Shown here in pieces: positions 630 through 23,563 of a stretch of 56,015 nucleotides of DNA. How positions within the stretch are numbered: the stretch's first letter is position 1; each line of letters opens with the position of its first letter. Position numbers and translations under genes: made by a program. This DNA comes from an uncultured Desulfobacteraceae bacterium (GTDB lineage: Bacteria; Desulfobacterota; Desulfobacteria; Desulfobacterales; Desulfatirhabdiaceae). The DNA lies in the NCBI GenBank assembly GCA_903953895.1, contig CAJBLH010000184.1:1-56015 (forward strand), given 5' to 3'. The notes beneath the pieces are model-generated. The model was not told the origin of the DNA. It saw nothing but the letters and a program-made list of their open reading frames with translations, and made no database searches.

Positions 630-1268
630 ATGCATTATACCATATTCGATACACCTGTTATCCGGACGCTGATGCGCTGGATTTCCCTGTTTATCTTTAA
701 AATCAGAGGCTGGCGAATTGAAGGCCGGTTTCCGGAAATTTCCAGGTATGTCTTGATCGCCGCTCCCCACACATCCAATTGGGATTTTCCCATTACACTC
801 TGTCTGACCTTTGCACTGCGGGGAAAAATTTACTGGATGGGAAAAGCCAGCCTGTTCCGTTGGCCGTTTCAAGGCATGTTCAAATGGCTGGGTGGTATTC
901 CTGTTGATCGATCCAAATCCAATAATATGGTCGGCCAGATGATTCGCCAATTTTCCGCCAGCGAGCAACTGGTGGTGACCATTCCGCCTGCCGGAACACG
1001 CAGCCATGTCATGAAATGGAAAACGGGATTTTATTATATCGCTCTGGGAGCCAATGTTCCGGTGGTGCTTGGATTCCTGAACTATCGAACAAAGGTCGGC
1101 GGGATCGGTCCCGTATTTCATCCCACGGGCGATATCCATGCGGACATGCAGCATATCAGAGCCTATTATTCAGGGATTCACGGAAAGCATTCGGTACAGC
1201 AGGTATATGAGATATCCGCCAGCCCGTTCAAGGTGGATATGGAGCTGTCATCCTTTCACGGTGGATAA
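630..1268 (+). CDS. Lysophospholipid acyltransferase family protein
   Basis: This 212-residue protein resembles the PlsC/LPLAT family, which moves acyl chains onto lysophospholipids or related acceptors at the inner membrane. The hallmark HX4D motif is HTSNWD at residues 47-52. The second acyltransferase block is PAGTRS at about 120-125, where most relatives have PEGTRS, so the usual Glu is Ala. A hydrophobic segment near residues 10-25 may anchor it. The ATG follows GAGGAG with good spacing. It stands alone and converges with the kinase gene downstream. The acceptor cannot be told from sequence. Confidence 0.8.
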   Translation: MHYTIFDTPVIRTLMRWISLFIFKIRGWRIEGRFPEISRYVLIAAPHTSNWDFPITLCLTFALRGKIYWMGKASLFRWPFQGMFKWLGGIPVDRSKSNNMVGQMIRQFSASEQLVVTIPPAGTRSHVMKWKTGFYYIALGANVPVVLGFLNYRTKVGGIGPVFHPTGDIHADMQHIRAYYSGIHGKHSVQQVYEISASPFKVDMELSSFHGG

Positions 1269-1297
1269 AGACGTTGACTGTTGATCGGTGAACGTCA

Positions 1298-3316
1298 TCA
1301 CAATATTCTTTGTCGGAAATCGCCCAATGTCTTTTGACTCGTATCGAGAAAAGGCATATTCGTCGGCAGATCGATAACCTCTCTGATTTTTAGGGATAAT
1401 CCATTGATATTGAAAGGTTTCTGGATGAAACCCATACATCCGCGCAGCAGCATCTCTGCGGCTTGTCCGCCCTCGCTGTAACCGCTGCACAGCAGAACTT
1501 TAACATCCGGATTGATTTTTTTCAGAGAGTCATATGTTTCCATCCCTCCCATTTCCGGCATGACCATATCCAGGATAACGATATCGATCTTGTTTCTGTT
1601 GATTTCATACAATGCGACGGCCTGTCTGCCATTGCCGGCGGCCAGAACCTCGTAGCCTAAGGCAGAGATCATGCTTCTTGCCACATCCAGGATATCGTCT
1701 TCATCATCGACCAGGAGAATCGTTTCCGTTCCGTTCAGGATAACTTCATCAGAACGCTTGTCTTTTTCGACCTCTTGTTCAGAAGCCGGCAGGTAAATGA
1801 AAAACGTCGTGCCGATGCCGACTTTACTTTCAGCGTCGATCATGCCTTTGTGATTTTTAATGATGCCGTAGGCCGACGCAAGTCCTAGTCCGGTGCCTCT
1901 GCCCATTTCTTTGGTCGTAAAAAAAGGCTCGAAAATCCGTTGCTTGGTTTTCTCATCCATTCCGATCCCGTTGTCTGCCACCGAAATTTTGACATATTTA
2001 CCTGGCGCCAAATCGAAAGGTCTTTCAGAACAGGTATTGAGATAAACATTCTCGGTTGCCAGTGAAAGCGCACCGCCCGAGGCCATGGCCTGGGAAGCGT
2101 TGACGTAGAGGTTCAGAAATACCTGTTCGATTTGTCCTTTGTCTGCATCCACAGGCCAGATTTTCTTTTCGTACTGCTCATGGGTAATGATTTCTTTTTT
2201 CGTCCGCACAAACATCTGCGACGTTTCCCTGAGCAATGCGTTCAGATTGACAGGTTTGAGCTCATATTTTCCCCCGCGTGCAAAACCCAGAAGCTGTTTG
2301 GTGAGGTCAGCCGCACTCTGGATGCTATCTTCGATTTTTTTCAGCCGCTCCTGATGGGGGTGCGGCATATCGTTTTTTATGAGCATCAGGGAAATGTGTC
2401 CATAGATGACCATCAGCAGGTTGTTGAAATCGTGAGCGATACCTCCAGCCAGGGTACCGATGGCATTCATCTTGTTGGCCTGGTGGAGCTTTTTTTCCAG
2501 ACGTTTTCTGTCACTGATATCTCTGGCCACCCCATGAGTGCCCAGGAAAGTCAGCGAATTTCCGGATGGATCCCTGGCATACATCCCGATGCATTTCAAT
2601 TCGACGGTAACATGGTTGATGTCGGTGATAGTGTCGAGCTCGTCCTCTCTGAAGGATTTCAGCCGGAGTTCGATCCAGGAAGTTGCTCTGTCCCCGGTTC
2701 TTCTCTCGTTAAAAATCCATTTGGCATTTTCCAGATCGTCTTCATGAATGAGATATGAATAGTGCTTTCCGATGAGTCGGCTTTTTTCAATGCCCAGAAT
2801 GCGTTCAACAGAGTCGCTGACAAAAGTGAATCGGCTGTCGCTGTCGAGCGTGTAGATGATATCCGGAGAATTTTGAACAAGATATCGATAGCGGACTTCG
2901 GAGATTTCCAGTTTTTCGTGAATAGCCAATTTTTCATTTTTAAGTTTTTTCTGGTTCAGGGCGTTTTTGATGGTGGTGAGCAATTCCTCGTACTCAAAAG
3001 GTTTTCTGAGAAAATCATAGGCTCCTTTGCGTAATGCGCTTACTGCAGTCTCGACGCTGCCGTTTCCGGTAATGATTATGGCGGCTGTATCCGGGCAATG
3101 GCTGTTGATATGGTCCATCAGTTGAAGACCGCTCACTTCCGGGATGGCGAGATCCAGAAGCGCCAGGTCGAACTGACGGATCGAAAGCAAATGCTGGGCC
3201 TCCCTTCCCGAAATGGTGGTATGGATATCATATCCCTGACTGATCAGCAGAAATTTCAGGCTGTCGCAAAATCTGGGCTCATCGTCGACAATCAGAATTT
3301 TCGGGCTACAGGCCAT
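1298..3316 (-). CDS. Hybrid sensor histidine kinase (REC-PAS-HisKA-HATPase-REC)
   Basis: The 672-residue protein opens with a receiver domain (ILIVDDEP, then a phosphoacceptor block [10 protein letters not shown]). A PAS domain follows (about residues 145-260), then a HisKA helix with H in GGIAHDFNN, a HATPase domain with GIGMDE, FFTTK and GTGLGLA, and a second receiver domain with LVDDEDD and [13 protein letters not shown] placed the start at 3316 because MACSPK directly precedes the receiver domain and follows AAGGAGAG; the open frame extends 30 codons further upstream without support. No membrane segment is visible, so it is probably cytosolic. It overlaps the end of the HDOD kinase gene by 11 bases, so the two are probably co-translated and may form one phosphorelay. 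Confidence 0.88.
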
Positions 3317-5516
3317 TGGCTTCTCTCCTTGGCAATATCTTTTCCGTACAGGCGGTTGTGGGCAGTTCAACCCTGAAGGTCGCGCCGTTGCCCGGTTCGC
3401 TCTCACAATTGATCGTGCCTTTCAATGTTTGAATGATGGTATGCGCGATGGAAAGCCCAAGGCCGGAGTGATCGCCGTTTTTGGTACCGGTATAGGGCTC
3501 GAACAACCGTGTTTTGATTTCATCGGGGATGCCGGGTCCATCATCATGAAACGTAATTTCCACATATTCGGGATAGTCAAGGTCGCTGTCGGATAATCCC
3601 CCGCCCAGACGGCTGGAGACACGACAGGTTCGAATATGCAGGTTGCCGCCGTCCGGCATGGCTTCAAAGGCATTTTTCATCAGATTGATAAACACTTGTT
3701 TCAGGCTGTTTTTGTCGGCCAGGATGCCGGGGAGTTCGGGATCAGGATCGAAATGCAGTTTAACGTTGAAGTGATCCAGCAAAGGCTCCCGGGTGATTGT
3801 CAAGATATCCGATAAAACGGCATTGACATCAACGGACTCGATTTTGCTGATCCAGTCTTCGGAAGAACTGTTCAGGTTGTGAAGGATCTGGGCGACCCGA
3901 TCGATTTCTTCATTGAGAATCTGGATTTCATCCTGGGCCATGTTGGCAGCCGAAAGTTTTATCCCAAGTATTTTCAAGTAGTTCTTGATTATGCTCAGCG
4001 GATTGTTAACTTCGTGAATGATCTTTCGCGCCATGGATGAGGACGCGCCGAAGCGTTCCAATTGGATTTCTCTGAGCCTGGATTCTTTCATGCGATGGAC
4101 ACGGATGGCGACAGATGTTTGATTCACAAGCATTTTCAATGGCTTGATCTGAGTTGTCAGGTGGGAAAACTCCCGTCTGTCAATGCCGAGAACCATCACA
4201 CCGATTGTTTCACCGTAGCCTATCATGGGAATACAGATCATTCCTTCCTTTCCCAGAAGGCGAACAATCTGTTCATCGATGACGGCGGGTATGATATCCG
4301 AGCTGCGGGTGAAAGAGTCAGCGATTTTGCGTGTTTGCAGGCATTCGATCATCAGGCTTTTTTCCATCTGCAAAGAGATGAACACGTCCTTGATAATTGA
4401 AAATCGCTTGTCGGCCGGAAATGATATCCCACGAAGCCCTTGTTTTTCCGGATTGAAAATAAAGAAAAGAACCAGAGAAATATCAAAGAGGCTATGAAGC
4501 CCTTGTAAAGATTCCTTCAATATTTCGGCTTCATCGGTTGCTGCCAGCAGGTTCTCGAGTGTTCCCTGTAAAAGCGAACGATCCCTGACTTCTTTGATCA
4601 GATCGATCTGCTTGTGGCGATCATTTTCCGCCGATACGGATTCTTTGTTGGGTTCTTTGGATTTACCGGGTTCAATCCCGATATTCAACGAGTCGGCCAC
4701 AACTTTCAGTTCCGCATCGGCCTGAGACAAGAATTCTTCAACAGCCACAGGCGTAAATCCGAAAGTCTCCCGGGCGGCATGCAATCCATCGGCGAAATTC
4801 CGTCCGGGATTTTTGCAGATGGCATTGGCGACGTATAGGCATTTCACCAAAGGCAGCGCATCGTGAAGTCTATTCAGGGGATAATGGTGATACCGTACTG
4901 CGTCGGCGATGAAGGACTGAAAATTCCATTTGTCAAGCAGCCACGCACCGATTTCCGCATGACCGGCGCCGACGAACTGGTTTTCTCCGGCAAGAATCGA
5001 TTCGGGTCTGCCCTTATGGGCTTCGATAAGGTCCGAATACTGTTGTGGAAAATTCACCCACAGAATGATCTTGCCGATGTCGTGCAGCAGGCCGGCCAAG
5101 AATGCATCATCCGGATTCGGAATATTCCGGTTTATAGCGACCAGTTTTGCCAGGATCGCACAAGTTAAGGAATGCCCCCAGAACTGTTTTAAATTAAATC
5201 CTGTTTTTGTATTGACGGTCTGGAAGACTTCGTGAACGGAGCTGCATATGGCGATGTTCTTGATGGCATTTGTGCCGAGGAGTCCGACAGCGCTGTCCAC
5301 ACTGGTAATATGATACTTGTTTCCGTAATAAGCGGAATTGACCAGTTTCAGAACGCGCGTTGTCAGCGCCGTGTCTTTTCCGATGATTTTGGAAACGTCT
5401 TTGAGACTGCCATTCTCTTCGTTGCAGGTTTTCATGAGCTGAAGCAGGATGTGTGGGAGTGTTGGGATGTGTTTGAAATTGGATAATTGATCTGCCAGAA
5501 CACTATGGATCGGCAT
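3306..5516 (-). CDS. HDOD-GAF sensor histidine kinase
   Basis: This 736-residue protein begins with an HDOD domain (about residues 10-220; LPHILLQLM, LVNSAYYG, AGLLHDIGK). A GAF-like region follows (about 310-480), then a kinase core with the phosphoacceptor His in KIIHEVNNPLS, an N-box NLMKNAFEAM, DDGPGI, and a G2-box HSGLGLS. HDOD domains often occur in signalling proteins of this bacterial group. No membrane segment is visible. The ligand is unknown. Its stop codon lies inside the start of the hybrid kinase gene, which points to a two-gene unit. Confidence 0.88.
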   Translation of the reverse strand: MPIHSVLADQLSNFKHIPTLPHILLQLMKTCNEENGSLKDVSKIIGKDTALTTRVLKLVNSAYYGNKYHITSVDSAVGLLGTNAIKNIAICSSVHEVFQTVNTKTGFNLKQFWGHSLTCAILAKLVAINRNIPNPDDAFLAGLLHDIGKIILWVNFPQQYSDLIEAHKGRPESILAGENQFVGAGHAEIGAWLLDKWNFQSFIADAVRYHHYPLNRLHDALPLVKCLYVANAICKNPGRNFADGLHAARETFGFTPVAVEEFLSQADAELKVVADSLNIGIEPGKSKEPNKESVSAENDRHKQIDLIKEVRDRSLLQGTLENLLAATDEAEILKESLQGLHSLFDISLVLFFIFNPEKQGLRGISFPADKRFSIIKDVFISLQMEKSLMIECLQTRKIADSFTRSSDIIPAVIDEQIVRLLGKEGMICIPMIGYGETIGVMVLGIDRREFSHLTTQIKPLKMLVNQTSVAIRVHRMKESRLREIQLERFGASSSMARKIIHEVNNPLSIIKNYLKILGIKLSAANMAQDEIQILNEEIDRVAQILHNLNSSSEDWISKIESVDVNAVLSDILTITREPLLDHFNVKLHFDPDPELPGILADKNSLKQVFINLMKNAFEAMPDGGNLHIRTCRVSSRLGGGLSDSDLDYPEYVEITFHDDGPGIPDEIKTRLFEPYTGTKNGDHSGLGLSIAHTIIQTLKGTINCESEPGNGATFRVELPTTACTEKILPRREANGL

Positions 5517-5649: not shown

Positions 5650-6150
5650 TTAATTAAATATCTGCCAGGTGGTTTCCGGGTGTGTGCCAGGCAGGGTGCA
5701 CCCCGGGAAGAATACCGTGTCACACCCTTCAGGCAGCGCGTAAAAAGAAAACAAAGGAGAACTGCCACGATTCTCATAGCCCAGAATGGCGCGATAGCGC
5801 GAAAGATTGACTTTCCCGGTATCCATCGCCTCCCGACGGATGGCGTAAAACAGATCGCCCGGCTCAAGTTTTTCCGGGCATACCGCACCGCAGAGATTAC
5901 ACAAACTGCACTCAAAGGCCACAGCCTGATGCTCAGGGTTGGAGAAATCGTATTTTTCGATGATTTCTATTGGGGTCCCGTACTCCTGGAGAAACGCACA
6001 CAGGGTTTTGCAGGCCCCGCAATCCGAACAGCCATTGCGAATATTGTCTATTGCACCCCGGAGCGAAGCGGACAATTCATCGGGTACGTCTCTGGTCTCG
6101 GCGGATACTGGAGCCTGGCAGTGGAAACGCCTGCGGTATCCGTTCAACAA
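5650..6150 (-). pseudogene. 4Fe-4S / CCG-domain oxidoreductase, 3'-truncated
   Basis: A 166-codon frame encodes two ferredoxin-type Cys clusters (CSDCGACKTLC and CSLCNLCGAVCP) and then the start of a CCG domain (VFFPGCTLPGT). Proteins of this GlpC/HdrB-like type normally continue for about 200 more residues with further CCG motifs. Here the frame stops at TAA just after WQIF and nothing homologous follows. The reading frame runs on directly from the TAA of the VTT fragment, with only a TTG as possible start. I infer a deletion remnant; a short expressed protein cannot be excluded. Confidence 0.6.
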
Positions 6151-6477
6151 TTACAGACAGGCCAGGGTGGCCCCGATGCTGCTGGCAAAAGAAATAATCA
6201 CTGTTCCGGTCAGAGTACCGAACAGGGTGCCGGCGCCAAGCCCCAGAATGGCGGCGCCAGGCAGGTTCAGAGCAACGACGGGTATATAGACGGCCACAAA
6301 AACGGCAATAATAAAAACAGGTCGATGCGTATAAATTTCAAGGAACCGTTCCCGCGATTCTTTGACAAACTCCAGGGTCAGGTATTCCTGGAGCCCCAGG
6401 GCAAAGAACAGTGCAACCAGACCTGTGATCAGGACAAGAACCAGCAGTTTCATAAGCGGCTTGGATTCAAGTGCCAT
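6151..6477 (-). pseudogene. TVP38/TMEM64 (VTT domain) membrane protein, truncated
   Basis: The 108 residues begin with a membrane helix (about 9-29) and continue into the VTT core (FVAVYIPVVALNLPGAAILGL, then FGTLTG and SFASSIGATLA). The family is usually about 200-240 residues long, and this one stops at TAA immediately after ATLACL, where the conserved second half should begin. The next codons enter the Fe-S protein frame. Because the stop is TAA it cannot be selenocysteine. It looks like a deletion that fused two neighbouring genes around a stop. Confidence 0.65.
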
Positions 6478-6492
6478 AATCAGTCTCTTTAT

Positions 6493-6640
6493 CTAATCAT
6501 CCAGGCAATCCAAAAGCAGGGTCGCGCTTGAAGCCAGCACCGGGCCACCGCCGAAAACCATGGCCATCCCGGCTGCTTCAAGAATTTCGGCCCGGGTGCA
6601 GCCTGACTCCACTGAGAAGGCGGATATCCGCCTCTCATCC
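6493..6640 (-). pseudogene. Carboxymuconolactone decarboxylase (AhpD-like) C-terminal remnant
   Basis: In the minus frame that follows the MetE-like gene, about 40 codons resemble the end of AhpD/CMD-family proteins (TRAEILEAAGMAMVFGGGP). The N-terminal half, with the CxxC active site, is missing. The remnant overlaps the last codons of the MetE-like gene and ends 16 bases before the VTT gene. CMD proteins reduce peroxides or disulfides, which would suit the thiol chemistry of the neighbouring genes. I read it as a remnant, with moderate confidence. Confidence 0.5.
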
Positions 6641-7801
6641 AAATCTTTTTCGCAGCGTCTCTGCTGCCGCAACAATGCTGCAGAGCTTTTGAAAAGCAAC
6701 ATCCTCGACGTTGACCGAGCGGCTGGCAAAACAGCCGAAACCGCAGTCGGTATTGAGAAAAAGCTGTTCCGGTCTGTAAAAATCAAGCGCTCTTGTGGCC
6801 TTTAGCACGATTTCCTCCGGAGTCTCAACTGTATCCGTCCGTGGATTGACCACGCCCAGTCCCAGTTCCCGATCCGAAAGAACCGAACCCACTACTTCGA
6901 TATCGCCGGCCCTTGGGGTGGCATATTCCAGGACAAACTGATCGATCCGCATGGGTTTTAAGGCCGGGATGAGTTTGGCGTAATCCCCTTGCAGGAGCAC
7001 CTCCTCCTGTTTGCTCCAATTGCCCCGGCAAATATGAATTCCTGTCCGAACGCCTTCGATGCCGGCGGTGATCCGGTTGATCAGTTCCGCCGCAAATTCC
7101 AGTTCCTTTCCCGCATCACGGCGGGTTGCAAGCGTTGCTCACATGAAAGTTCGCCGATCGCAGTTCTCCGACATGACAATTTCGGTGAGAACCGGTTCGT
7201 CGAACTGGACAAAGTCGCAACCGGCATCCCGCAGATCGATCAGCTCTTCCCGCAGGATTTTAACGATATCATCCGCCAGTTTTTTGTGATTGCGATAGAC
7301 TTTGCCTGTCAGGGCCCCGACCCACATGGAACGGGTAAGCAGATACGGGCCGGGCAGGGTGATTTTGACCGGTTTTTTTGATATCGTGCGGAGAAATTTG
7401 AGGTCATTAACCGCGAGGGGCTCCCGCCGTGAAAGTTTGCCGATGCAGGTGGGATTTTTCACAGCCGAGGCCGGCATGTCCATGGTTCGCAGCATTTCTT
7501 CAAATTCGGCCTTGTCTTCGACATAGTCGAGCATATCGGCCAATGACATGAGCCGGGTGCCGTCAACCTTGTCCGCGATAAAGGCGTAGAAGCTCTCCCG
7601 GCGGTGTTCACCGTCTACGATGATATCGAGACCGGCCTTTTCCTGCAGGTGAACGGTTCTGCGGATCTCGACGTCGGCGACGTTGTCAAAATCCCTGCGG
7701 GACAGGGCCTTTTTCTGAAAAGCACGCAGGGCTTTGAGCATTTCCCTGGAACGGGGCCAGGAACCGACCTGGGTGGTCGTAAATGTTTTTATGTTTGTCA
7801 T
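6635..7801 (-). CDS. MetE-like cobalamin-independent methionine synthase family protein with in-frame TGA (candidate selenoprotein)
   Basis: If the TGA at 7139-7141 is read through, the frame gives 388 residues covering the whole MetE-core family: TTTQVGSWPR near the N-terminus, VDGEHRRE, FDEPVLTE, the zinc-ligand pair H256 and C258 (IHICRGNW), and a third ligand Cys in TDCGFGC near 353. The TGA is codon 221, in RTFM-TGA-ATLA. From memory of the family, Cys occupies this position in relatives. A hairpin CCCGC-CGTGAT-GCGGG lies right after it, with G as the second loop base 20 nt from the TGA, which fits a bacterial SECIS. No other frame break is present. The organism inserts Sec in SelD. A Cys-to-stop mutation is the alternative. 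It lies 14 bases after the TusA-OsmC gene in the same operon. Confidence 0.65.
7102..7141 (-). promoter_or_regulatory. Candidate bacterial SECIS element in the MetE-like gene
   Basis: Immediately 3' of the in-frame TGA on the minus strand, CCCGC and GCGGG form a 5-bp GC stem closing a six-base loop CGTGAT. The loop G sits about 20 nt from the TGA, inside the usual 16-37 nt window for SelB-dependent recoding. This is structural inference only. Confidence 0.5.
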
Positions 7802-7815
7802 GATTTCTGCTGGAG

Positions 7816-8559
7816 TCAGACGATAGCCAGTCTGATATCCATATCCGTTCCTTTTTTGAGTGTGGCAACAAGGGGCGAGCGGTTGACCGTGCCCACCCAG
7901 ATGGTTTTAACCGTGTCCTCATCCTCGAAGGTTGAAACAAAACATTTCACCGCGATGGTCTCAAAGGAGGGGTCGCCTTGTTCCACGCCCAGATGGGCCA
8001 GGATATTGTGGAGACGGGCGCTGATAGAGATTTCGATGTCATCGACATCCAGGCCTGCACGGGCGCAGTCACTGGCAAAACCGGTGACCAGCGAACCGGC
8101 GACAGCCCCGAGCAGATATTCAATCGCGCTCGGGTAACTGTCTTTTTCCTCAAAACTGGCAGGCTGGCCGATGTCAAAAGAGAAATTTCTGGCATAGACC
8201 TTGGCGTGCTGATGCCCGGCCGATCGGACTCTGGCCCGCCACTCAAAAGACTTTGCCTCCTGCTTGTCCCGGGCAAGGGCCTGGGTCTCTGCTTCAGCCT
8301 CCAGGGCTGCCCGGCGTCTGACAAAATATCGAACGAAACCCTCTGCCGGCAGGGAGCCCAGGTATTCATGGCCTACCATCCGACACCAGGGGGGCAGATC
8401 ATCGGCAACCGTGGGTTCCCTGCTGCGCATTTCAAGAATCCCGTCCACCGGGGTCTTCAGCATGTTTTCACGGATCAGGAGGATGAGGCCGGTGCCGCAA
8501 TCCAGGTCGCCGCCATCAAATATGGCGTCAGGCCGCAGGTTTGTGAAATCGGAAATCAT
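7816..8559 (-). CDS. TusA-like domain fused to OsmC-family protein
   Basis: The protein has 247 residues. The first 75 or so form a TusA/SirA-like unit with FDGG, a Cys-Gly at 21-22 and a PWCRM motif (Cys59). The rest is an OsmC domain (about 105-245) with the helix Cys in SDCARAG and a second Cys in AVKCF, the usual pair of redox cysteines in this peroxide/thiol-handling family. The N-terminal unit is a paralogue of the separate 78-residue gene at the head of the operon. It is flanked by DsrE-like and MetE-like genes at 30 and 14 bases. I infer a role in passing or protecting protein-bound sulfur; the true substrate is unknown. Confidence 0.8.
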   Translation of the reverse strand: MISDFTNLRPDAIFDGGDLDCGTGLILLIRENMLKTPVDGILEMRSREPTVADDLPPWCRMVGHEYLGSLPAEGFVRYFVRRRAALEAEAETQALARDKQEAKSFEWRARVRSAGHQHAKVYARNFSFDIGQPASFEEKDSYPSAIEYLLGAVAGSLVTGFASDCARAGLDVDDIEISISARLHNILAHLGVEQGDPSFETIAVKCFVSTFEDEDTVKTIWVGTVNRSPLVATLKKGTDMDIRLAIV

Positions 8560-8589
8560 GGGTTAACCTGTATGAATGAAGATTAAAAA

Positions 8590-8955
8590 TCAGTAGGCAA
8601 CGCAGGGTGATCCGTTGCTCAGCCATTCCACGAGACTGGCGCCACCGGCGGGCGTAGCTCCTTCGATCAGCATGTCTTCGGTGATGCCGCGTTTTTTCAT
8701 GCAGGGGGTACATACATAGATTTTCCCTCCGGCCTTGATGAATTTATCAACGAGTTCCTTGAGCGAGGCAAAAGGCGCACCTTCATTGACCCTGACCATT
8801 TCTTCCTTGTGGGCGCACCAGACGCCATCGGAACTTAAGAAAACCATGGTTTCTTTTTCGCTGCCCTGGGCGGCATTGGCGACAACAAAGCCGAGTGTTG
8901 CTTTGTCGCCATCGGTTTTACAATGGGTGATTGACACACAAAAGGTGTTAGACAT
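8590..8955 (-). CDS. DsrE/F-like sulfur-carrier family protein
   Basis: This 121-residue protein has the compact DsrE fold signature: an N-terminal strand, a GVWCAHKEEM segment, the Cys pair in YVCTPCMKKRGI near residues 80-86, and the C-terminal block ATPAGGASLVEWL typical of the family. DsrE/TusD relatives carry persulfide sulfur on a conserved Cys. A strong GGAGG site precedes the ATG. It is 21 bases from the upstream TusA-like gene and 30 from TusA-OsmC, so all belong to one transcript. Confidence 0.85.
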   Translation of the reverse strand: MSNTFCVSITHCKTDGDKATLGFVVANAAQGSEKETMVFLSSDGVWCAHKEEMVRVNEGAPFASLKELVDKFIKAGGKIYVCTPCMKKRGITEDMLIEGATPAGGASLVEWLSNGSPCVAY

Positions 8956-8976
8956 GAAGTGTACCTCCGAATTGGG

Positions 8977-9213
8977 TTATTTAAGGGTGATAAGATAATA
9001 GGGATGTTTTTGGTCCACGAGCGTGTTGCGGGTCATGCGACACCAGGCCGGCAGTTCCATGGGCGCCCCCGGATCCCGTGAGACCACCAGAACACGGTAA
9101 CCTGAAGGCTGGGTTCGGAGATAGAGATGCAGGTTGATGATCACCCTGCCGCAGGTCTCCTCGCCGCCGTCAAATTCGTCGTCAAACTGCCAGTCGGGGA
9201 TTTCTCGGTCCAT
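8977..9213 (-). CDS. Small TusA/SirA-like protein
   Basis: The 78 residues contain FDGGEETCG (Cys21) and PAWCRM (Cys58). These match, with nearly equal spacing, the first domain of the TusA-OsmC fusion two genes downstream. TusA proteins relay sulfur as a persulfide on a Cys near the N-terminal helix; here the Cys is followed by Gly rather than the usual Pro. The Shine-Dalgarno site is weak. It is the first gene of the minus-strand sulfur operon. The family match is by pattern and is fairly distant. Confidence 0.65.
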   Translation of the reverse strand: MDREIPDWQFDDEFDGGEETCGRVIINLHLYLRTQPSGYRVLVVSRDPGAPMELPAWCRMTRNTLVDQKHPYYLITLK

Positions 9214-9874
9214 TGCTGTTTGTATCCATTGGGATATAAAAAAAATCGGTTATTATGGCATAATCAATTCAATCTTCTGTCATATCTCTGCGAATGTGTC
9301 AAATTCACTTTATCTATAATATATCGTACATTATCACCATTGGTTATAGCTTTGAATATCGGATTGACAAACCCGACGATGTGATATATTGAAATTTTGA
9401 TTCGTTTCGGACTCTGAATCGATTTCCATAATTTTCTTAAAACATGCGGTCGTTTTTTTGTGCCGTCAGAAATCCGGGACCTGAAATAACAGTGTCGTAT
9501 TCGCAGGCAAAGCCCATAGTGCTTTGCCTGACTTCTTTAAATAAAGAAAAGTTTCAAGGCTTCCATCATGTATCCATTTTTCGGCTTTACCTGAGATAGT
9601 TTGAAGAACGCCACCCGTGTTGGTGGGCGCAGGATAAGACCGAAAGATCATGTCTCTGGTTAGTTCGTAGCCGGTTGTTTTTTCCTTCCTTTCGTCTTTC
9701 CTGAACATTTCTTCCTGATTGATTTATTTTTGTCGTCGGTCCACAGGGGATACCTGCGTTCCGGCAGGCGCTCCGTTGACCTCTATTCAGTGGTTGAAAG
9801 CGCTTTTGCGCCGTATTGGGCCGGAAAAACAGGCTTTCTTCTTTGCGGGGTTTGTCCGGGAACAAGGAGGAAAA
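9214..9874. other. Intergenic region, no confident gene
   Basis: The first 200 bases are AT-rich and should hold the promoter of the minus-strand sulfur operon, though no convincing -35/-10 pair stands out. A 10-bp inverted repeat (CAGGCAAAGC / GCTTTGCCTG) lies at 9504-9530. An 80-codon minus-strand frame (9466-9708) has an AGGAAG site before its ATG but resembles nothing I recognise. Confidence 0.4.
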
Positions 9875-10351
9875 TTGATTCGTTGTGTTTACAGAAGTCC
9901 AAAATTCGACAGGCAACTGGTTTCGCTTCGCAAAGCCGGCAAAAAAGCCGCTATCGCTGCCGGCAAGGCGGACGGGATTGTCCACAGGCTGATACAGGGT
10001 TGCCGTCTCCCCGATGAAAACAGGATGGTCACCAACAATGGCGAATACCGGATCAGAAAATGTGTCAAATACGATCTCGGTGGCGGCTATCGTCTAATTA
10101 CCATTTGGCGGGGGGAGCATGTATTTGTTTCGTATATCGGAACGCACGATGAATGCGACCGCTGGATAGAAAACAACAGGCGACTACAGATTGAGGTTCT
10201 CAAGGAACGCAGTCAGGAAATTCCTGTTTCTGAAATAACGTCTGCTGTGAAAATCGAATCCCGTCCCCCGGCGGATGATGATCCCTGTATTTATCCCATT
10301 GATGAAAAATATCTCCGCATGATTTTTTGCGGATTGTCCGGCAGCGTTTGA
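9875..10351 (+). CDS. RelE-like toxin family protein
   Basis: The 158-residue protein has a RelE/ParE-type core: a basic N-terminal helix region, then YRIRKCVKYDLGGGYRL, ITIWRGEHVFVSYIGTHDEC and DRWIENNR. These proteins are mostly mRNA-cleaving toxins. I chose TTG at 9875 because AGGAGG lies just upstream. The C-terminal 45 residues are an extension beyond the usual toxin length of about 90-110. No antitoxin gene is visible on either side, so it is orphaned or has another role. The HdrA remnant starts right at its stop codon. Confidence 0.65.
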   Translation: MIRCVYRSPKFDRQLVSLRKAGKKAAIAAGKADGIVHRLIQGCRLPDENRMVTNNGEYRIRKCVKYDLGGGYRLITIWRGEHVFVSYIGTHDECDRWIENNRRLQIEVLKERSQEIPVSEITSAVKIESRPPADDDPCIYPIDEKYLRMIFCGLSGSV

Positions 10352-11051
10352 GTCGGAACATCAATATCAAACTGCTGACCCTTTCGGAAGTTAAAGAAGT
10401 CCGCGGGGAAATGGGCAATTTTGAGGTTTCGGTGTTTCAGAAAGCCCGCTATGTGGATATGGACAAGTGTATCGCCTGCGGGGCATGTATGGAAAAATGT
10501 CCCAAAAAAATGCGGCAACTGTGAAAAAAACTGTCCGGCCGGCGCTATCAATTATGCGGATACCGATAAGCATCTGACCCTTCGGGTCGGCTCGATCAAT
10601 TCTGGCGCCGGGGTTCAAGGTTTACGATCCCAGGCTGGAATGCACCATATTCTACATGGACATGCGCACCCACGGCAAAGGATTTGAAAACTGCTACAAT
10701 CAGGCCCGGGAGAAATACGGCATCCGGTTTGTCCGCTGCCGCATTCATTCGGTTTACGGCCAGACCGGAGAAAACAAAGGCCAGGTTATCGATTATGTCG
10801 ATGAATCCACCGGCAAATGGATCCGGAGCATCCATGACATGGTCGTACTTTCCGTGGGCATGGAGATTTCAGAGAAAGTCATGCGGCTGGCGGTTCAGTT
10901 GGACGTGGAACTGACCGGCGGCGGTTTTTGTAAGACCGGCTCCTTCAATCCGGTTACGACCAGTCGGAACGGTGTTTTTGTCTGCGGCGCATTTCAAGGT
11001 CCCAATGACATTCCGGAATCCCAGTTAATGGCCATGATCGCCAGTGCATAA
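10346..11051 (+). pseudogene. HdrA-like (heterodisulfide reductase subunit A) gene remnant
   Basis: HdrA is the FAD and Fe-S subunit of heterodisulfide reductase-type electron-bifurcating complexes. Here it survives as pieces in different frames: NIKLLTLSEVKEVRGEMGNF and CIACGACMEKCPKK; then, after an A7 run with a frame change and a loss of about 40 codons, CGNCEKNCPAGAINY; then another frame change into ILAPGFKVYDP, MDMRTHGKGFENCY and FVCGAFQGPNDIPES. The N-terminal FAD-binding part is gone. Multiple independent lesions make it non-functional. Confidence 0.85.
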
Positions 11052-11069
11052 AACATAGTAAAGGATAAT

Positions 11070-11631
11070 TCGGCGTCGCTGGATCTGGCCAATTCCGGAT
11101 ACCTGGTATATCTGGTGGAAAGCAAACCGGCCATCGGCGGGGTGATGGCCCAGCTCGACAAAACCTTTCCCACCAACGATTGCGCCATGTGCGTCATATC
11201 GCCCAAGCTGGTAGAGGCCGGGCGTCATCTGAACATCGAGCTCTTCACCCTGACGGAAGTCGAGGCGGTCGAGGGCCAGGTCGGGAATTTCACCGTCAAG
11301 CTGCTGGAGTACCCGCGATATGTGGACCTGGCCAAATGTACGTCCTGCGGGGAATGCGCCAAGGCCTGTCCCATCGATACCCCCAATCTGTTCGACGAAG
11401 GGCTGCGGGATCGTAAAGCCACCTATAAACTCTATCCGCAGGGAATGCCCGGCGCATGTGAGTATTCAAGGATATATCGCCCTGATTCATCAGGGAAAAT
11501 ACCGGGAAGCCCATCCGTTTCCCGGCGTTTGCGGCAGGGTCTGTCATCACCCGTGCGAAAGTGCCTGTACGCGCGGGGATGTGGATCAGCCCATGGCCAT
11601 TGAATATCTCCATCGCTTCATTGCAGACTAC
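11070..11631 (+). pseudogene. Second HdrA/GltD-like flavoprotein remnant
   Basis: A second HdrA-type gene fragment starts inside the FAD domain (SLDLANSGYLVYLVESKP) and runs through CAMCVISPKLVEAGRHLNI, CTSCGECAKACPIDTPNLF and YPQGMPGA. It then shifts frame into CPAHVSIQGYIALIHQGKYREA and FPGVCGRVCHHPCESACTRGD, a GltD-like Fe-S segment that in intact relatives follows the HdrA ferredoxin domain. Short in-frame pieces are missing at both joins. It is cut off at the MITE boundary. The cysteines at ligand positions are Cys, not Sec. Confidence 0.85.
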
Positions 11632-13057: not shown

Positions 13058-14113
13058 ATGAAAACCACGATAGATACACTTCATCTCCGATTAACCGAAA
13101 CCGTAAAAGGCGCCGGCTGAGCATCCAAACTGCCTCCGGGGGACCTGGAGAAGGCGCTGTGCGGGATGGTGTTTCCCACCAATGCCAATGTGCTGGTCGG
13201 GCTGGACTGCGCGGATGACGCCGGCGTCTATCGCGTATCCGATGACCTGGCCCTGATTCAAGCCGTCGATTTTTTCACGCCGATTGTGGATGATCCCTAT
13301 GCATTCGGTCAGATTGCCGCCGCCAATGCCCTGAGCGACATCTACGCCATGGGCGGCATTCCCAAAACCGCCATGAACCTGGTGGCCTTTCCCTTAAAAA
13401 CAATGGATATTTCCGTGCTCCGGCAGATCATTCAGGGCGGCCTGGACAAATTGACCGAGGCCGGGGTCGTGCTGATCGGTGGACACAGCATCGAAGACAG
13501 CGAGTTGAAATACGGACTGTCGGTTACCGGATTCATCCATCCCAGCCGGGTACTGACCAAAAAAACGATCCGCCCGGGGGACCGGCTGATTCTGACCAAG
13601 CCCCTGAGTACCGGCATCGTCAACACCGCGATCAAAGGGGGGCTGGCGTCTTCATCCGTCATCGAAAGCACGATTCGCTTGATGGCGACCCTGAATCGCC
13701 GGGCCGCCGAGATCATGAGCGACTACCCGGTCAGCGCCTGCACGGTCATCACGGGTTTCGGCCTGATCGGCCATCTGGCCGAAATGGTAGCAGGTTCTGG
13801 ATTTGGCATGACAATTTATGCATCAATGCTTCCCGTCATCCCGGAAGCCAGGGAATATGCCGCCATGGGCCTGGTGCCGGCGGGCGCTTACAAAAACAGG
13901 GAATTCCGGGAAAACATGGTGACCTTCGGCCCGCAAGTGGATCGGGTCCTGCAGGATATTTCTTTTGATCCCCAAACCTCCGGCGGCCTCTTGATCAGCA
14001 TTCCCGGTGCTCAGGCGGATGCGCTTCTGGCCGGACTGAAAGATCGCGGCATCCCCCACGCCGCGATCATCGGGGAAGTGACAGATGCGCCAGAACATAT
14101 TTCGGTGATTTAG
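13058..14113 (+). CDS. selD: Selenide, water dikinase SelD, itself a selenoprotein
   Basis: SelD makes selenophosphate from selenide and ATP for Sec-tRNA synthesis. Read from ATG 13058 the protein has 351 residues, with TGA at codon 21 (13118-13120) in the motif KGAG-Sec-ASK; the catalytic Lys is residue 24. After the TGA the frame stays open to the end with family blocks such as DDAGVY, VDFFTPIVDDPY, NALSDIYAMGG, GGHSIEDSE and DPQTSGGLL. A start at 13166 would remove the active site. A short stem with a G-rich loop about 18 nt past the TGA could serve as the SECIS. It proves Sec use by this organism. Confidence 0.93.
13118..13160 (+). promoter_or_regulatory. selD recoded TGA and candidate bSECIS
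   Basis: After the TGA, CTCC and GGAG close a loop GGGGGACCT, with flanking GCC/GGC able to extend the stem around a bulge. The first loop G is 18 nt from the TGA, within the spacing used by SelB. Confidence 0.6.
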
Positions 14114-14806: not shown

Positions 14807-16330
14807 GTGTCTGAAAACAACGAACTGGAAAAAACCCTGTGGGCGGCTGCGGACAAACTCCGTTCGAACATGGATGCTTCTGAGTACAAGCATATTGTTC
14901 TCGGCCTGATCTTTTTGAAATACATCTCGGATGCCTTCAACGATCTGTACGAGCAGCTCAAAGCAGGTGAAGGGGAGTTTGAAGGGGCCGACCCGGAAGA
15001 TGCCGATGAATACCTGGCTCACAATAGCTTCTTCGTGCCGGAAAAGGCCCGCTGGCAGTTTTTGCAGGATCGTGCCAAACAGCCGGAGATCGGTAAATGG
15101 CTCGACGAGGCGATGGATGCCATCGAAAAGATCAATCCGTCACTCAAGGGGGTGCTTCCCAAGATCTACGCAGATCCGGAACTGAACAAGCAGCGCCTGG
15201 GCGAAATCATCGATCTCATCGGCACCATCGGCTTCAACCAGAGCGGCCACAAGGCCAAGGATCTTCTGGGCCGGGTGTATGAATATTTTCTCGGTCAATT
15301 CGCCAATGCCGAAGGGAAGAAGGGAGGGCAGTTCTGGACGCCGGCAAGCATTGTCAAAGTGCTGGTCGCCATGCTCGAACCCTACCATGGACGGGTTTAT
15401 GATGGATGCTGCGGCAGCGGCGGTATGTTCGTACAAAGCGAACGCTTCGTGGAGGAACATCAGGGCAACGTCAAGAACCTGTCCATTTATGGTCAGGAAT
15501 CCAACCCCACCACCCTGCGTCTTGCCAAGATGAATCTGGCAATTCGCGGCATCGATGCCTGCATCGAGTTGGGCGATACTTTTCTAAATGATAAACACAA
15601 GGATATGAAGGCCGACTTTATCCTTGCCAATCCCCCCTTTAATGTGAGCGACTGGAGCGGTGAACACCTGCGGGAGGATAGCCGTTGGAAATTCGGCGTT
15701 CCGCCAACGGGCAACGCCAACTACGCTTGGTTGCAGCACTTCGTCCACAAGCTCAGCCCCAGCGGAACGGCGGGGATTGTGCTAGCCAACGGCAGTATGA
15801 ACTCCAACTCCGGCGGCGAGGGAGAGATCCGCAAAAACATGATCGAGGCAGGTCTGATTGACTGCATGGTGGCTCTGCCGGCCCAGCTTTTTTACAACAC
15901 CATGATCCCCGCCTGTCTCTGGTTTCTGGCCCGAAACAAGACCAACGGCAAATTCCGTAACCGTTCGGACGATATTCTCTTTATCGACGCCCGCAAGATA
16001 GGCTCCATGATCAACCGCCGTAACAAGGAGTTTTCGGACGAAGACATTGCCCAGATAACCGATACCTATCACGCGTGGCGCAATATCGGCGGACGGTATG
16101 AAGACAAGGCCGGCTTCTGTAAAGCTGCGACCCTCGAAGAAGTTCGAAAAAACAACTACGTACTCATGCCGGGCCGATATGTCGGCACCGAGGCGGAAGA
16201 GGATGATGGCATCCCCTTTGATGAAAAGATGAACGCCCTCACAGCGAGACTGGCCGAGCAGTTTGCACGGGGCAGTGAACTGGAGAAGATCATCCGGGAG
16301 AACTTGAAAGGGATTGGGTATGAGTTCTGA
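14807..16330 (+). CDS. hsdM: Type I restriction-modification system DNA methyltransferase subunit HsdM
   Basis: The 507-residue protein has the N-terminal helical HsdM domain ([20 protein letters not shown]), then [11 protein letters not shown], the SAM-binding motif [12 protein letters not shown] and the catalytic NPPF in [12 protein letters not shown]. It methylates adenine in the site chosen by HsdS. The GTG start at 14807 is preceded by AGGAGA about 10 bases upstream. It opens a six-gene unit whose genes all overlap; the next one starts inside its last codons. Length and motifs look intact. Confidence 0.93.
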
Positions 16331-17432
16331 TCTGGCCTTTTACGGCAGTCTTCTGACCGAGATCAAGGATCGGATCCGTCAGGCCCAGACACGCGCCGCT
16401 CTTTCCGCCAATTCAGAGATGATCGCGATGTATTGGGATATCGGTCGGATGATTCATCTGAGACAACAGATGGAGGGCTGGGGCGCTGGAGTCATTCCCC
16501 GGCTGACCGTCGATCTTAAAAACGAGCTGCCTGAGATCAAAGGGTTCTCCGAGCGGAATATTAAACGGATGTTAACCTTTTTCCGTGAATACCCGATATT
16601 CGGAATTGTGCCACGACCCGTGGCACAATTGGGCGGCACGGACAATCTGATGGAAAAAGTGCCGCAGCCTGTGGCACAAATGCTTGAAAGCAGCCCAAAT
16701 TTGCAGCAGCTCGCTGCAAAAATTCCATGGGGTCACAATATTCTGCTGATGGAGAAGATCAAAGACCTGCCCATCCGCCTCTGGTACATGCAGCAGACCA
16801 TCGAGCAGGGTTGGAGCCGGGATACGCTGGTGGCGATGATCAAGAGCAAAGTCCATGACCGACAGGAACAGGCGGTCAGTAATTTCTCAGTCCGCCTCCC
16901 CGTGCCGCAATCGGAGCTTGCCCGGCAGTTGCTCAAAGACCCCTATATTTTCGACTTTCTGACCCTTGAGGAACCTTTTCATGAGCGAGAACTGGAGACC
17001 GGGCTGATCCGGCACCTGGAGAAATTTCTACTGGAACTTGGGTCCGGCTTTGCCTTCGTCGGACGTCAGTATCATCTGGCAGTGAGTGACAGGGATTTTT
17101 ACCTTGATCTGCTTTTTTATCACCTCAAACTGCGCTGTTTCATCGTTATTGAACTGAAGAAGGGCGACTTCAAACCAGAGTACGCCGGCAAGATGAACTT
17201 TTACTGCTCAGTGGTGGACGACCAGCTCCGGAACGAAACCGATCAACCCACCATCGGCCTGATTCTCTGCCAGACCAAGGACCGCATCCTGGCTGAATAC
17301 AGCCTGCGCGACATCCACAAACCCATCGGAATTTCCGACTATGAGTTGACCCGCGTCCTGCCGGAGAACCTTAAATCCAGCCTGCCGACGGTGGAGGAGA
17401 TTGAAGAGGAGTTGGGAGGGAATTTGGGATGA
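16320..17432 (+). CDS. YhcG/DUF1016 family PD-(D/E)xK nuclease
   Basis: The 370-residue protein has the N-terminal DUF1016 helical region ([24 protein letters not shown]) and a C-terminal nuclease-like fold with [30 protein letters not shown], which supplies the D...ExK core. YhcG-type genes are often found within type I restriction operons. ATG 16320 overlaps the end of hsdM by 11 bases and was preferred over a TTG six bases earlier. Its role is not established; it may add a nuclease activity to the system. Confidence 0.85.
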
Positions 17433-18577
17433 GTGCTGAAGGTTGGGAAGCAATTTCACTGGAAGAAGCTATTGAATTTAAAAATGGGAAATCTTCGCAT
17501 GAGAGAAAAGATATAGGTTTAAATCCTGTTTTTGGTGGCAATGGGATAATTGGTTATACAGAAGAATCGAACAGCGACTTTGAAACCATAGTTGTAGGTC
17601 GTGTTGGTGCTTACTGTGGCAGTGTATATTACTACAAGGGAAAATGCTGGGTTACTGACAATGCGATTATTGGTAAGGTTAAGCAACCTTATGAGGGTTT
17701 GTACTTGTTCTATTTAATGAAAATGATTGATTTAAATAGTCATAGGACTGGGTCTAGCCAGCCTTTGGTAAATCAGTCAATTTTAAACTCAATACAGGTC
17801 AAAGTCCCACGCAAAAAAGTTACACAAACGCGCATTGCAGCCATCCTCTCCGCGCTGGACGATAAGATCGAACTGAACCGTCAGACCAACGCCACGTTGG
17901 AGGCCATCGCCCAGGCGATTTTCAAGGAATGGTTTGTGGATTTCCGCTTCCCCGGAGCCACCGGTGAAATGCAGGACAGCGAATTCGGCCAGATCCCGAA
18001 AGGGTGGCGGGTTGGGAGGATAGGGGATATTTGTGAACTAAATCCAAAGTTAACCCTGAGAAAAGGCACCATCTCCAAGTACGTTGAAATGAAAAATCTC
18101 TCTCAGTGCTTATTGTCAATTGAGGAGCCAAGAAAGCGTGAATTTGTGTCAGGAAGTAAATTCCAAAATGGAGACACGTTATTTGCAAGAATTACCCCTT
18201 GTCTCGAAAACGGCAAAACAGGCTTTGTTGATTTTCTGACTGATTTGGAAATTGGATGGGGCTCTACAGAATTTATTGTCTTGAGAGGAAGAAATTATAT
18301 CAACCCCTATTTTATTTATTGCTTATCGCGGCTCTCAAATTTTCGCGAATTTGCCATACAATCTATGGTCGGTTCTTCTGGAAGACAACGTGTTGTTGAA
18401 TCCATTCTATCCGATTATCCTACAGTAATTCCTGATCAAGAGACTGTGAATAATTTCTTGAACGTTGTGGAAAAAATGTTTTTTCAAGTGAAAAATAATT
18501 CTGATCAATCCGCCACTGTCGCCAAAATCCGCGACTCCCTTCTTCCCAAACTCATGTCCGGAGAGATCGAAGTATGA
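17429..18577 (+). CDS. hsdS: Type I restriction system specificity subunit HsdS
   Basis: This 382-residue subunit has two target-recognition domains (about residues 1-135 and 190-345), each followed by a conserved helical spacer. The central one includes RIAAILSALDDKIELNRQ and the C-terminal one KIRDSLLPKLMSGEIEV. The TRD sequences are AT-richer than the spacers and the rest of the operon, as expected for exchanged specificity domains. The ATG overlaps the YhcG stop (ATGA). The recognition site cannot be read from sequence. Confidence 0.92.
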   Translation: MSAEGWEAISLEEAIEFKNGKSSHERKDIGLNPVFGGNGIIGYTEESNSDFETIVVGRVGAYCGSVYYYKGKCWVTDNAIIGKVKQPYEGLYLFYLMKMIDLNSHRTGSSQPLVNQSILNSIQVKVPRKKVTQTRIAAILSALDDKIELNRQTNATLEAIAQAIFKEWFVDFRFPGATGEMQDSEFGQIPKGWRVGRIGDICELNPKLTLRKGTISKYVEMKNLSQCLLSIEEPRKREFVSGSKFQNGDTLFARITPCLENGKTGFVDFLTDLEIGWGSTEFIVLRGRNYINPYFIYCLSRLSNFREFAIQSMVGSSGRQRVVESILSDYPTVIPDQETVNNFLNVVEKMFFQVKNNSDQSATVAKIRDSLLPKLMSGEIEV

Positions 18578-19578
18578 GCGATGGGAAGAAAATCGAATTT
18601 GTCGATAATCCCGACTTCAACCGCTGGCTTGAGGAAAATTATCAGGTCTGCATTGAAGAGTATGAATACCCATCGAGCAGGGTCCTCTATAACACCACAT
18701 ACGAAGACTATATTGAAGCCCTTGGCCGCTATAATGCAGACCCCAAAATAGAATTTTCTCGAATTGAAGATAAATTTCCGTCACCTATTGCCTATTATTT
18801 TTATCAGGCAAATAACAATTACCAGAACGAACATCATCGCCTCGATTTACTCAAGTCCTGTTGGGAATCCATCGTATTTTTACTTTTCGGCCTGGTAGTT
18901 GCGGAAGCAAGACATAAAAAGTTGCAAATAAAAGACATCGGTATCACCTGGAAAACTTTTTGGAGTGATAGACTCTTTGAAAAACTCACCATCATAGAAA
19001 ACATTATTGATTACACCACCAAAAACGGCATCGTTTTTGAGTGCGCAAGATTCATTCCGATTGCCACACTGGCTGACATTAAAACCTTGAATCAAGAACG
19101 TAACGGCTTTGCCCATGCGGCTGCAAGAACGGCTGCTCAGCAGAAGGAACTGTATGAAGTCCTCTGTCCGCTGTTGGAAGACGTGCTTAAACAGCTCATT
19201 GGGCTTGAAAATGTCATCATCCTCCGCTACCACTCCTCCGAAACGCCGCTGGTCCCTCGTTGTGAAATTTTCAATGGAAGTTCTATTGAAGGACGCAAAG
19301 AGGGCATCGTTCTTAAAAAAGAAAGGTATATCGAAATTCTTGATCATTGGAATGCAAGTTCCATCTTTGCAATGATCAATGACCAAATATTTTGCCTCTC
19401 ACCCTTTATTCATTTCTCGCAAGATGCCCATGAAACCAACGCCGTTCTTTGTTTTTATAAAAAAGAAAGAAACGGGAAGTATCTCTTTGAGGTGGTAAGC
19501 AAAGCGCAGGATAAGGAATTTGAAAAAAGCTGTTTCACCACGACGGAAAATCAACTCCGTGAACTGGTGGTTCCATGA
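18574..19578 (+). CDS. HEPN-like accessory protein of the type I restriction operon
   Basis: I do not recognise a named family for this 334-residue protein. The middle (about residues 90-215) is helical and contains ERNGFAHAAA, an R-x4-H motif like the catalytic motif of HEPN ribonucleases. The C-terminal 110 residues are predicted mixed alpha/beta. No signal peptide or membrane helix is seen. It overlaps hsdS upstream and the RAYT gene downstream by ATGA, so it is translated as part of the restriction unit. HEPN proteins are common as RNA-cleaving parts of defence systems; that role is inferred here. Confidence 0.6.
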   Translation: MSDGKKIEFVDNPDFNRWLEENYQVCIEEYEYPSSRVLYNTTYEDYIEALGRYNADPKIEFSRIEDKFPSPIAYYFYQANNNYQNEHHRLDLLKSCWESIVFLLFGLVVAEARHKKLQIKDIGITWKTFWSDRLFEKLTIIENIIDYTTKNGIVFECARFIPIATLADIKTLNQERNGFAHAAARTAAQQKELYEVLCPLLEDVLKQLIGLENVIILRYHSSETPLVPRCEIFNGSSIEGRKEGIVLKKERYIEILDHWNASSIFAMINDQIFCLSPFIHFSQDAHETNAVLCFYKKERNGKYLFEVVSKAQDKEFEKSCFTTTENQLRELVVP

Positions 19579-23300: not shown

Positions 23301-23563
23301 CACTAAAACAGATCGCCCATGAATTGGTTGACAGCGTAAGAAAAAACACCTCTATCGATTGGCAGTTAAAAGAGAGCGTACAGGCAAAATTGCGGGTTTT
23401 GGTGAAACGAATTCTCAGAAAGTACAAGTATCCTCCGGATGACCCCAGCACCGGGGAATATACCGTTTCCGTCAACAAGGTACTTGATCAAGCGGAGTTG
23501 CTGGCAGAATTCTGGATAAATGATCCACAGTCGGCTTCTATAAAAAAGGGTTTCGGTCGTTGA
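20333..23563 (+). CDS. hsdR: Type I restriction system motor/endonuclease subunit HsdR
   Basis: The 1076-residue protein has an N-terminal nuclease domain ([12 protein letters not shown] with the E-x-K pair; [13 protein letters not shown]), Walker A in [14 protein letters not shown], the DEAH box in [25 protein letters not shown], and later helicase motifs ([18 protein letters not shown]). A long helical C-terminal region binds the modification complex. It translocates DNA and cuts unmethylated targets. I chose ATG 20333 because GGAGG lies 10 bases upstream and the codon overlaps the RAYT stop. It looks complete. Confidence 0.93.

Follow-up and report, generated by a model that had tools for sequence, protein, structure and literature searches.

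A candidate selenoprotein with a MetE-type domain in a conserved cassette of sulfur-carrier genes

The window (the whole stretch of DNA analysed, 56,015 nucleotides) contains a gene for a MetE-type protein whose frame is interrupted by one in-frame TGA, which raises the question of whether this codon terminates a decayed gene, is read as cysteine, or inserts selenocysteine (Sec) into a zinc thiol methyltransferase.

A MetE-type gene with an internal TGA

The gene, which we refer to as metE(U), is a PF01717 core-MetE-type candidate selenoprotein gene at 6635..7801, and the coordinates given in the earlier note are correct, with the gene on the minus strand running from 7801 to 6635. The sole internal stop of this frame is TGA 7141-7139 at codon 221, the proposed selenocysteine (7139..7141, minus strand, context RTFM-U-ATL), and translation with TGA as U gives 388 residues followed by a terminal TGA at 6637-6635. 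An ORF listing that stops at TGA shows the gene as two truncated ORFs. The full translation matches PF01717 over residues 7-356 of 388 (125.2 bits vs a cut-off of 21); on the 324-position profile, the part 5' of the TGA covers 1-189 and the ORF 3' of it (6635-7000) covers 222-304. The frame had been described as continuous and conserved on both sides of the TGA, and this is borne out by the PF01717 matches on each side and by the part beyond the TGA, which stays open and is conserved throughout the 37 proteins aligned. The protein has a single PF01717 domain and no separate folate domain, a weak PF08267 match (29.7 bits, cut-off 27) falling in the same region, and no other PF01717 match at E ≤ 0.001 occurs in the window's own genome (G000, 5.47 Mb). 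The description as MetE-like stands as far as the PF01717 match goes, but all eight NCBIfam models that match metE(U), methionine synthase models, do so under their cut-offs (best 187.5 vs 406), the curated equivalog models for core methionine synthase do not assign the protein to that function, and membership in MetE therefore needs care.

Codon 221 and the downstream hairpin among relatives

A scan of genome contigs gave 59 loci (loci are numbered with L, genomes with G), some of which repeat genomes (apparently L026 is G001 and L043 and L066 are G002; L037 is G365), and 51 of them cover codon 221. The codon is TGA in 46, a Cys codon (TGC or TGT) in three that are 48-52% identical (labelled Dehalococcoidia for L067, Poribacteria for L068 and Bacillaceae for L069), and unalignable in two that are about 28-30% identical; TGA persists in loci with as little as 58% identity. 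In a phylum sample of 395 genomes, a search at E ≤ 1e-60 yielded seven matches; two have TGA, the other five are Cys homologues, each with TGC at codon 221, and Cys stands at this site in eight of eight Cys-form homologues (three loci and five genomes). The order of G365 has metE(U) in 22 of 257 genomes with TGA counted inside a match in all 22, the codon position being checked only for rows also among the 51 covering loci. The earlier note had proposed that the TGA replaces a Cys of relatives and that an alignment of homologues should reveal such pairs; TGA/Cys pairs are found exactly at codon 221, and the nearest relatives (L003 of G001, L004 of G002, L025 and L026) also have TGA there, hence the codon is not specific to this strain.

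These counts bear on the explanation that the earlier note had named as its main rival, a simple nonsense mutation leaving a pseudogene that terminates at codon 221. There is decay next to metE(U), which the note had also claimed and which is real only in part, as a remnant of a CMD gene at 6496-6615 (minus strand) with short ORFs beyond. Against termination at codon 221 stand the 46 of 51 loci with TGA, nearest relatives included and with identities as low as 58%, and the open and conserved frame beyond the TGA. Extra stops appear only in fragmentary matches, a TAA in L004 and a TAG in L177, the former counted in the match, while a later frame reading without this TAA omitted the L004 fragment. 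A nonsense mutation is contradicted by the conservation of the TGA, and we reject it as extremely unlikely.

The gene is patchily distributed around the window. Among seven genomes of its own genus metE(U) is present in three (G000-G002, all TGA) and absent from four, including two incomplete genomes (67% and 89%), and the rest of the relatives sample has only distant matches at 33% identity or less. A tree of 54 rows places 43 Sec rows (including the identical pair L003 and L026) on one side of a branch with support of 96/100 (94% of bootstrap trees), and splits the eight Cys proteins into two groups; we infer the root, and with it a direction from Cys to Sec, only tentatively because the outgroup branches are very long. 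Records in the Sec clade are labelled Desulfobacterota, Bacteroidota, Eisenbacteria and Myxococcota, and the window protein groups with L025, L026 and L027 within a clade whose records are for the most part Desulfobulbaceae/Desulfocapsaceae. This placement, together with the absence from four of the seven genus genomes and the distant matches elsewhere in the relatives sample, makes it likely that metE(U) was acquired horizontally.

Downstream of the TGA lies a bSECIS-like hairpin (7110..7125, minus strand) that starts 13 nt past the codon and has a 5-bp core stem (CCCGC/GCGGG) and a 6-nt loop (CGUGAU) with G in second position, and the sites involved are conserved, in agreement with the earlier note's suggestion that a GC hairpin with a loop G fits a bSECIS. 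Two more outer pairs (7108-7127) occur in many relatives and are absent from the window. The folding energy of the window hairpin is ordinary (z -0.88, equalled in 35 of 200 shuffles), and 23% of metE(U) codon positions precede something at least as stable; we rejected the energy as stand-alone evidence, since this stability is not above chance. Among the Sec genes, 41 of 43 have a best fold with a hairpin 14-37 nt after the codon and a G in the first two loop bases, the other two (L061 and L065) having a best fold without the required hairpin, and two of three Cys genes also pass; the rule is a simple ad hoc one, not bSECISearch, and is weak alone since Cys genes pass it.

Constraint on the hairpin can be seen at synonymous sites. 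When the 87 fourfold-degenerate columns of 34 dereplicated sequences are ranked by entropy, codons 226, 227, 228 and 231 all fall within the lowest seven. The third bases of codons 226-228 belong to the core hairpin (stem and loop) and that of codon 231 to the outer pair 16-33, so that four of the extended hairpin's five fourfold sites rank with the seven that vary least. The fifth, in codon 225, contributes to the outermost pair (15-34) and shows ordinary variability, like codons 222-224 and 237-238. Over 45 sequences (43 distinct), 88.4% of cells are paired vs 85.5% in shuffled sequences (a value reached by 0 of 500), and sliding the hairpin leaves 30-53% of cells paired (at most 52.5%). Two pairs have changed on both sides, C-G/U-A at columns 15-34 and C-G/A-U at 21-28; the outer pair 15-34 is C-G in 17 rows, U-A in seven and U-G in one, and 18 of the 43 distinct rows, the window included, are unpaired there. 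The changed-pair counts are not decisive, with the number of pairs reached by 44 and the number of pair types by 43 of 500 shuffles. RNAalifold returns the same 5-bp stem plus a small stem before it. At the sequence level, the signal above chance is the conservation of the codon, of the synonymous sites in the hairpin and of the pairing, and the strict Sec-type conservation at 223-231 may be due in part to the hairpin and not to the protein.

Reading of the UGA codon

The window genome encodes selB (contig C121, 382 bits, over cut-off), tRNA-Sec (contig C182, 75.5 bits, over cut-off; G73, anticodon UCA) and selA (596.8 bits). The earlier note had pointed to selD in the window as proof of UGA recoding; selD is present at 13058..14113 on the plus strand, is of the Sec type and is itself a TGA gene (13118-13120, GAG-U-ASKLPPGDL), which places UGA recoding nearby, outside the cassette to which metE(U) belongs. 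The ORF listing begins this gene only at 13166. selB and tRNA-Sec are over cut-off in 20 of 20 genomes, ten with the TGA gene, seven with the Cys form and three gene-less; since Cys-form and gene-less genomes have both, the two genes allow Sec insertion without being diagnostic of it. The tRNA-Sec model also matches in 36 of another 37 genomes, the exception being G516; the only match in G488 and G490 is selC*-like, and the best match in G500, G504 and G519 is weak (47-52 bits).

Elsewhere in the window, 14807-30167 (plus strand) holds a defence-like island, in the order hsdM-like gene (under cut-off), three genes without an NCBIfam match, a REP-associated tyrosine transposase match (under cut-off), hsdR (over cut-off), then methyltransferase-like and PrimPol/XPB-like genes (weak matches).

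The codon could instead be read as Cys by an opal-anticodon tRNA-Cys, in some lineages or at scarce selenium. Such a tRNA, selC*, inserts Cys at UGA (PMC7609411, PMC9437257, PMC11415595), and the consulted sections of these three papers name no target gene for it. Cys does occupy site 221 elsewhere, in the eight Cys homologues, and selC*-type tRNAs occur in several loci, in some of them near the cassette. Those with U73 and anticodon UCA lie at 1521-1617 (plus strand) in L033, upstream of the cassette with the tusA match from 1692; at 4402-4499 (plus strand) in L037, with the tusA match from 4578; and at 1000-1096 (plus strand) in L096. One with U73 and anticodon GCA lies at 2043-2134 (plus strand) in L065, about 2.5 kb upstream of the cassette. 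L033 corresponds to G490 and apparently to G568. The tRNA gene in both L033 and L037 is a second tRNA-Sec-like gene that sits directly upstream of the cassette, shares its strand and precedes the tusA match by 75-80 bases, and these predicted tRNAs (UCA, U73) fit the description of selC* tRNA-Cys in the part of PMC7609411 drawn on here. Further selC*-type forms lie on contigs apart from the cassette, with GCA in G476 and G485 and with UCA in G479, G488 and G493. Desulfobulbus alkaliphilus DSM 24258 (L059) has both selC* and canonical selC, neither of them on the contig that bears the cassette.

The exact 21-base selC*(UCA) pattern was found in 11 of the 257 genomes in the order of G365, all 11 with U73 and all in a single genus (g96), where it occurs in five of five genomes with metE(U) vs six of 18 others (one-sided Fisher 0.014, kinship uncorrected); selC* adjoins the cassette in two of these five carriers and lies on other contigs in three. 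Confinement to one genus speaks against Cys as the general reading, as do the 17 carriers of metE(U) that the order has beyond g96, in which the pattern is not matched within two mismatches, and the window genome itself, where the Rfam search found no UCA selC* and the single tRNA-Sec-type gene over cut-off has G73. Near the window cassette neither Rfam (E up to 10, 6400-11500) nor ARAGORN gave a match, and a selC* gene at that place was rejected. We also rejected a selC* dedicated to metE(U) alone, since six of the 11 carriers are without metE(U), so the tRNA has other uses. The likeness to the published selC*/SelB*/CysRS* system (PMC7609411, PMC9437257, PMC11415595, as far as consulted) is a U73, UCA tRNA-Sec-like tRNA beside the cassette in two genomes; unlike that system, G000 is without selC*, and G365 and G479 have neither a second SelB over cut-off nor a recognised short CysRS*. 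CysRS* was rejected as a candidate, the second CysRS being a 714-798-aa open-frame form that genomes lacking the selC*(UCA) pattern share. Because the 17 carriers outside g96 and G000 are without a selC* match, the tie between selC* and metE(U) is an association in one genus and no requirement. We consider Cys at UGA 221 very unlikely, and retain Sec as the preferred reading.

Two side observations concern these genes. The long second CysRS (714-798 aa) stands beside a normal cysS in 11 of 14 genomes (e.g. contigs C81 of G000, C17 of G365 and C23 of G476). G568 has, besides the cassette-linked one, a second selC*(UCA) pattern match with one mismatch (C418:1563-1583, minus strand, L154), whose 3' end is CCAGTCGCC, with G and not T after the stem.

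Cassette, active site and proposed function

metE(U) is the last gene of a four-gene cassette, the other three lying upstream on the same strand (all minus in the window). The first encodes a stand-alone TusA-like protein of 78 aa (8977..9213; PF01206 25.3 bits, just under the cut-off of 28.6), the second a DsrE-family protein of 121 aa with the motif C82-T-P-C85 (8590..8955; PF02635 60.1 bits) and the third a TusA-OsmC fusion of 247 aa (7816..8559; PF02566 over and PF01206 under cut-off). Of the 59 loci, 41 are testable, with at least 2.2 kb upstream plus the metE 5' end, and 39 of these, the Cys forms L068 and L069 among them, have the four genes in this order and on the same strand. The exceptions are L067, with OsmC downstream only, and L072, in which dsrE was not found; in L085-L087, three Cys loci from the same family, the available stretch shows none of the partners apart from an OsmC gene downstream. 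The cysteines of the partners are almost fully conserved in the Sec loci: Cys21 of the stand-alone TusA in 40 of 40 loci, Cys82 and Cys85 of DsrE in 42 of 42, and in TusA-OsmC Cys21 and Cys59 in 41 of 41 and Cys206 in 42 of 43 aligned.

By family resemblance, with both TusA domains under the Pfam cut-off, the cassette would act as a persulfide relay, and sulfane-sulfur chemistry is what these predicted sulfur-carrier partners suggest. In another system, thiosulfonate groups are handed on by a DsrE/TusA pair (PMC4175335). The DsrE3A-TusA modules described there resemble the cassette in their neighbouring DsrE and TusA genes with conserved cysteines; they differ in having Hdr-like and dihydrolipoamide dehydrogenase genes where the cassette has a TusA-OsmC fusion and a MetE-type enzyme, and in that DsrE3A has Cys-X7-Cys while the cassette DsrE has CxxC (C82/C85). 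No paper in the literature collection searched combines TusA, OsmC, DsrE and methionine synthase.

A second Sec, in TusA-OsmC, was rejected as a candidate: the sole internal stop seen, in L035, is a TAA at a non-Cys position (832-1566, plus strand, codon 176), and represents a mutation or an assembly error. L065 has a complete CMD gene (2646-2978). The window remnant at 6496-6615 matches no more of it than the final 40 residues, and L036 likewise has only the end of a CMD-like gene (4429-4536, final 36-40 residues). In L065 the complete CMD-like gene is followed by a 461-codon frame with cysteine clusters, which looks Fe-S, and then by the cassette. The short ORFs at 5650-6477 of the window (minus strand) look like truncated genes, one with no Pfam match and one with a weak-to-moderate match to Fer4_17 (Fe-S).

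The zinc- and homocysteine-binding residues of MetE named in PMC7857596 were mapped onto metE(U) by eye through an alignment with PDB 4ztx. All of them, His256, Cys258, Glu292 and Cys353 (zinc) and Ser14, Glu65 and Asp201 (homocysteine), are invariant in 51 of 51 proteins (43 Sec and eight Cys). The zinc ligands being invariant, Sec would therefore be added to the zinc site with no ligand replaced. Three further cysteines separate the two forms: Cys119 and Cys357 are present in 43 of 43 and Cys214 in 42 of 43 Sec proteins, and all three in none of the eight Cys proteins. Cys357 lies four residues past the zinc ligand Cys353 and is Thr in all eight Cys proteins, and for this reason a pair of Sec221 and Cys357 at the zinc site is the arrangement we prefer. 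The Sec-specific Cys357 also lends indirect support to the earlier note's suggestion that Sec would lie near the zinc site.

For MetE(U) we infer Sec insertion, substrate, methyl donor, direction of transfer and the relay as follows. The thiol substrate, homocysteine or a close analogue, would bind as a zinc thiolate at His256/Cys258/Glu292/Cys353, and this thiolate would be methylated. Located in the segment behind the FDEP motif, Sec221 would act at the zinc site together with Cys357, which is specific to the Sec form; as a redox or nucleophile couple, the two would either take sulfane sulfur from the TusA/DsrE/TusA-OsmC persulfide relay or keep the thiol reduced through it. As a whole, this scheme of zinc-thiolate methyl transfer, Sec221/Cys357 and persulfide relay is tentative.

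A simpler possibility is that MetE(U) is the cell's ordinary, MesB-like methionine synthase, which happens to use Sec, and that the sulfur-carrier genes serve another purpose. The conserved zinc and homocysteine residues named in PMC7857596 would suit it, and G000 has no other PF01717 gene, no PF02965 and only partial MetH-like genes. PF02965 is absent from ten of 15 TGA carriers searched, but is present in the carriers G365, G478, G479, G480 and G514; at E ≤ 1e-30 the metH model matches nothing in carriers G476, G477, G489 and G515, while G365, G479, G481 and G508 have long MetH-like matches, none of the 15 genomes reaching the metH-model cut-off. The genus mates G004 and G006 (98-99% complete) are without metE(U), and G004 and G007 have neither metE(U) nor a metH-model match, so other routes exist in this family. 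The low NCBIfam synthase scores given above, far under cut-off, also count against it, as does a four-gene linkage kept in records of several phyla and in the Cys forms L068 and L069. MetE(U) shares with the core methionine synthases MesA-MesD (Price 2021, PMC7857596; Deobald 2020, PMC7005905) an architecture of one catalytic MetE domain lacking a separate folate domain, and the same zinc and homocysteine residues (PMC7857596); it differs in Sec221, in Cys119/214/357, in its fixed tusA-dsrE-tusA/osmC partners and in falling under all eight NCBIfam cut-offs. Distant MesB-like proteins with a possible other function have been described (Price 2021, PMC7857596), and MetE(U) may be one of them. 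We regard a role as the ordinary methionine synthase as possible but somewhat unlikely. An involvement of the cassette in handling selenium itself, or in detoxifying alkylated metals or metalloids with Sec as a metal ligand, seems improbable: several predicted selenoproteins are assigned to mercury or arsenic handling (PMC13188914), but nothing within the cassette points to selenium or metals.

We therefore return to the selenoprotein reading. In UGA, downstream hairpin, Cys homologues and Sec machinery, metE(U) resembles the bacterial selenoprotein families listed in PMC13188914, a 2026 catalogue. Table 1 of that catalogue, with 119 bacterial selenoprotein families, contains no MetE/PF01717 family; the catalogue lists arsenite methyltransferase, MduS and methyltransferase/UXPK-star under NF008823, PF13649 and NF047649. 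A MetE-type selenoprotein was likewise not found in the consulted portions of PMC9312934, PMC8318568 and PMC12013277, or by literature search. Relative to Table 1 of PMC13188914, MetE(U) would thus be a selenoprotein family not listed so far. The TGA/Cys pair, the constraint on the hairpin, the cassette and the catalytic residues are features of the sequences themselves, and on them we put at about 0.88 the probability that metE(U), the last gene of the cassette, encodes a selenoprotein of an unlisted family, a predicted zinc thiol methyltransferase, with UGA 221 read as Sec through SelB and the hairpin.

A more far-reaching idea, to which we give only a small chance, is that the cassette is a new pathway coupling a persulfide relay to Sec/zinc methyl transfer, in which the UGA of Desulfobulbus-like genomes would be read as Sec or Cys according to selenium supply, by tRNA-Sec or selC*. 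If this were true, metE(U) would be the first named target of UGA decoding by selC*, within the consulted parts of PMC7609411, PMC9437257 and PMC11415595, and the selC* gene beside the cassette offers a concrete gene for testing whether UGA is decoded as Cys. Gene callers that halt at TGA hide the MetE(U) enzyme, and the conserved cassette makes its function accessible to genetics. The candidate would place selenocysteine in a zinc thiol methyltransferase family not listed as using it, which suggests that selenium biology may reach past the usual redox folds and be tied to sulfur-carrier proteins in a conserved cassette.
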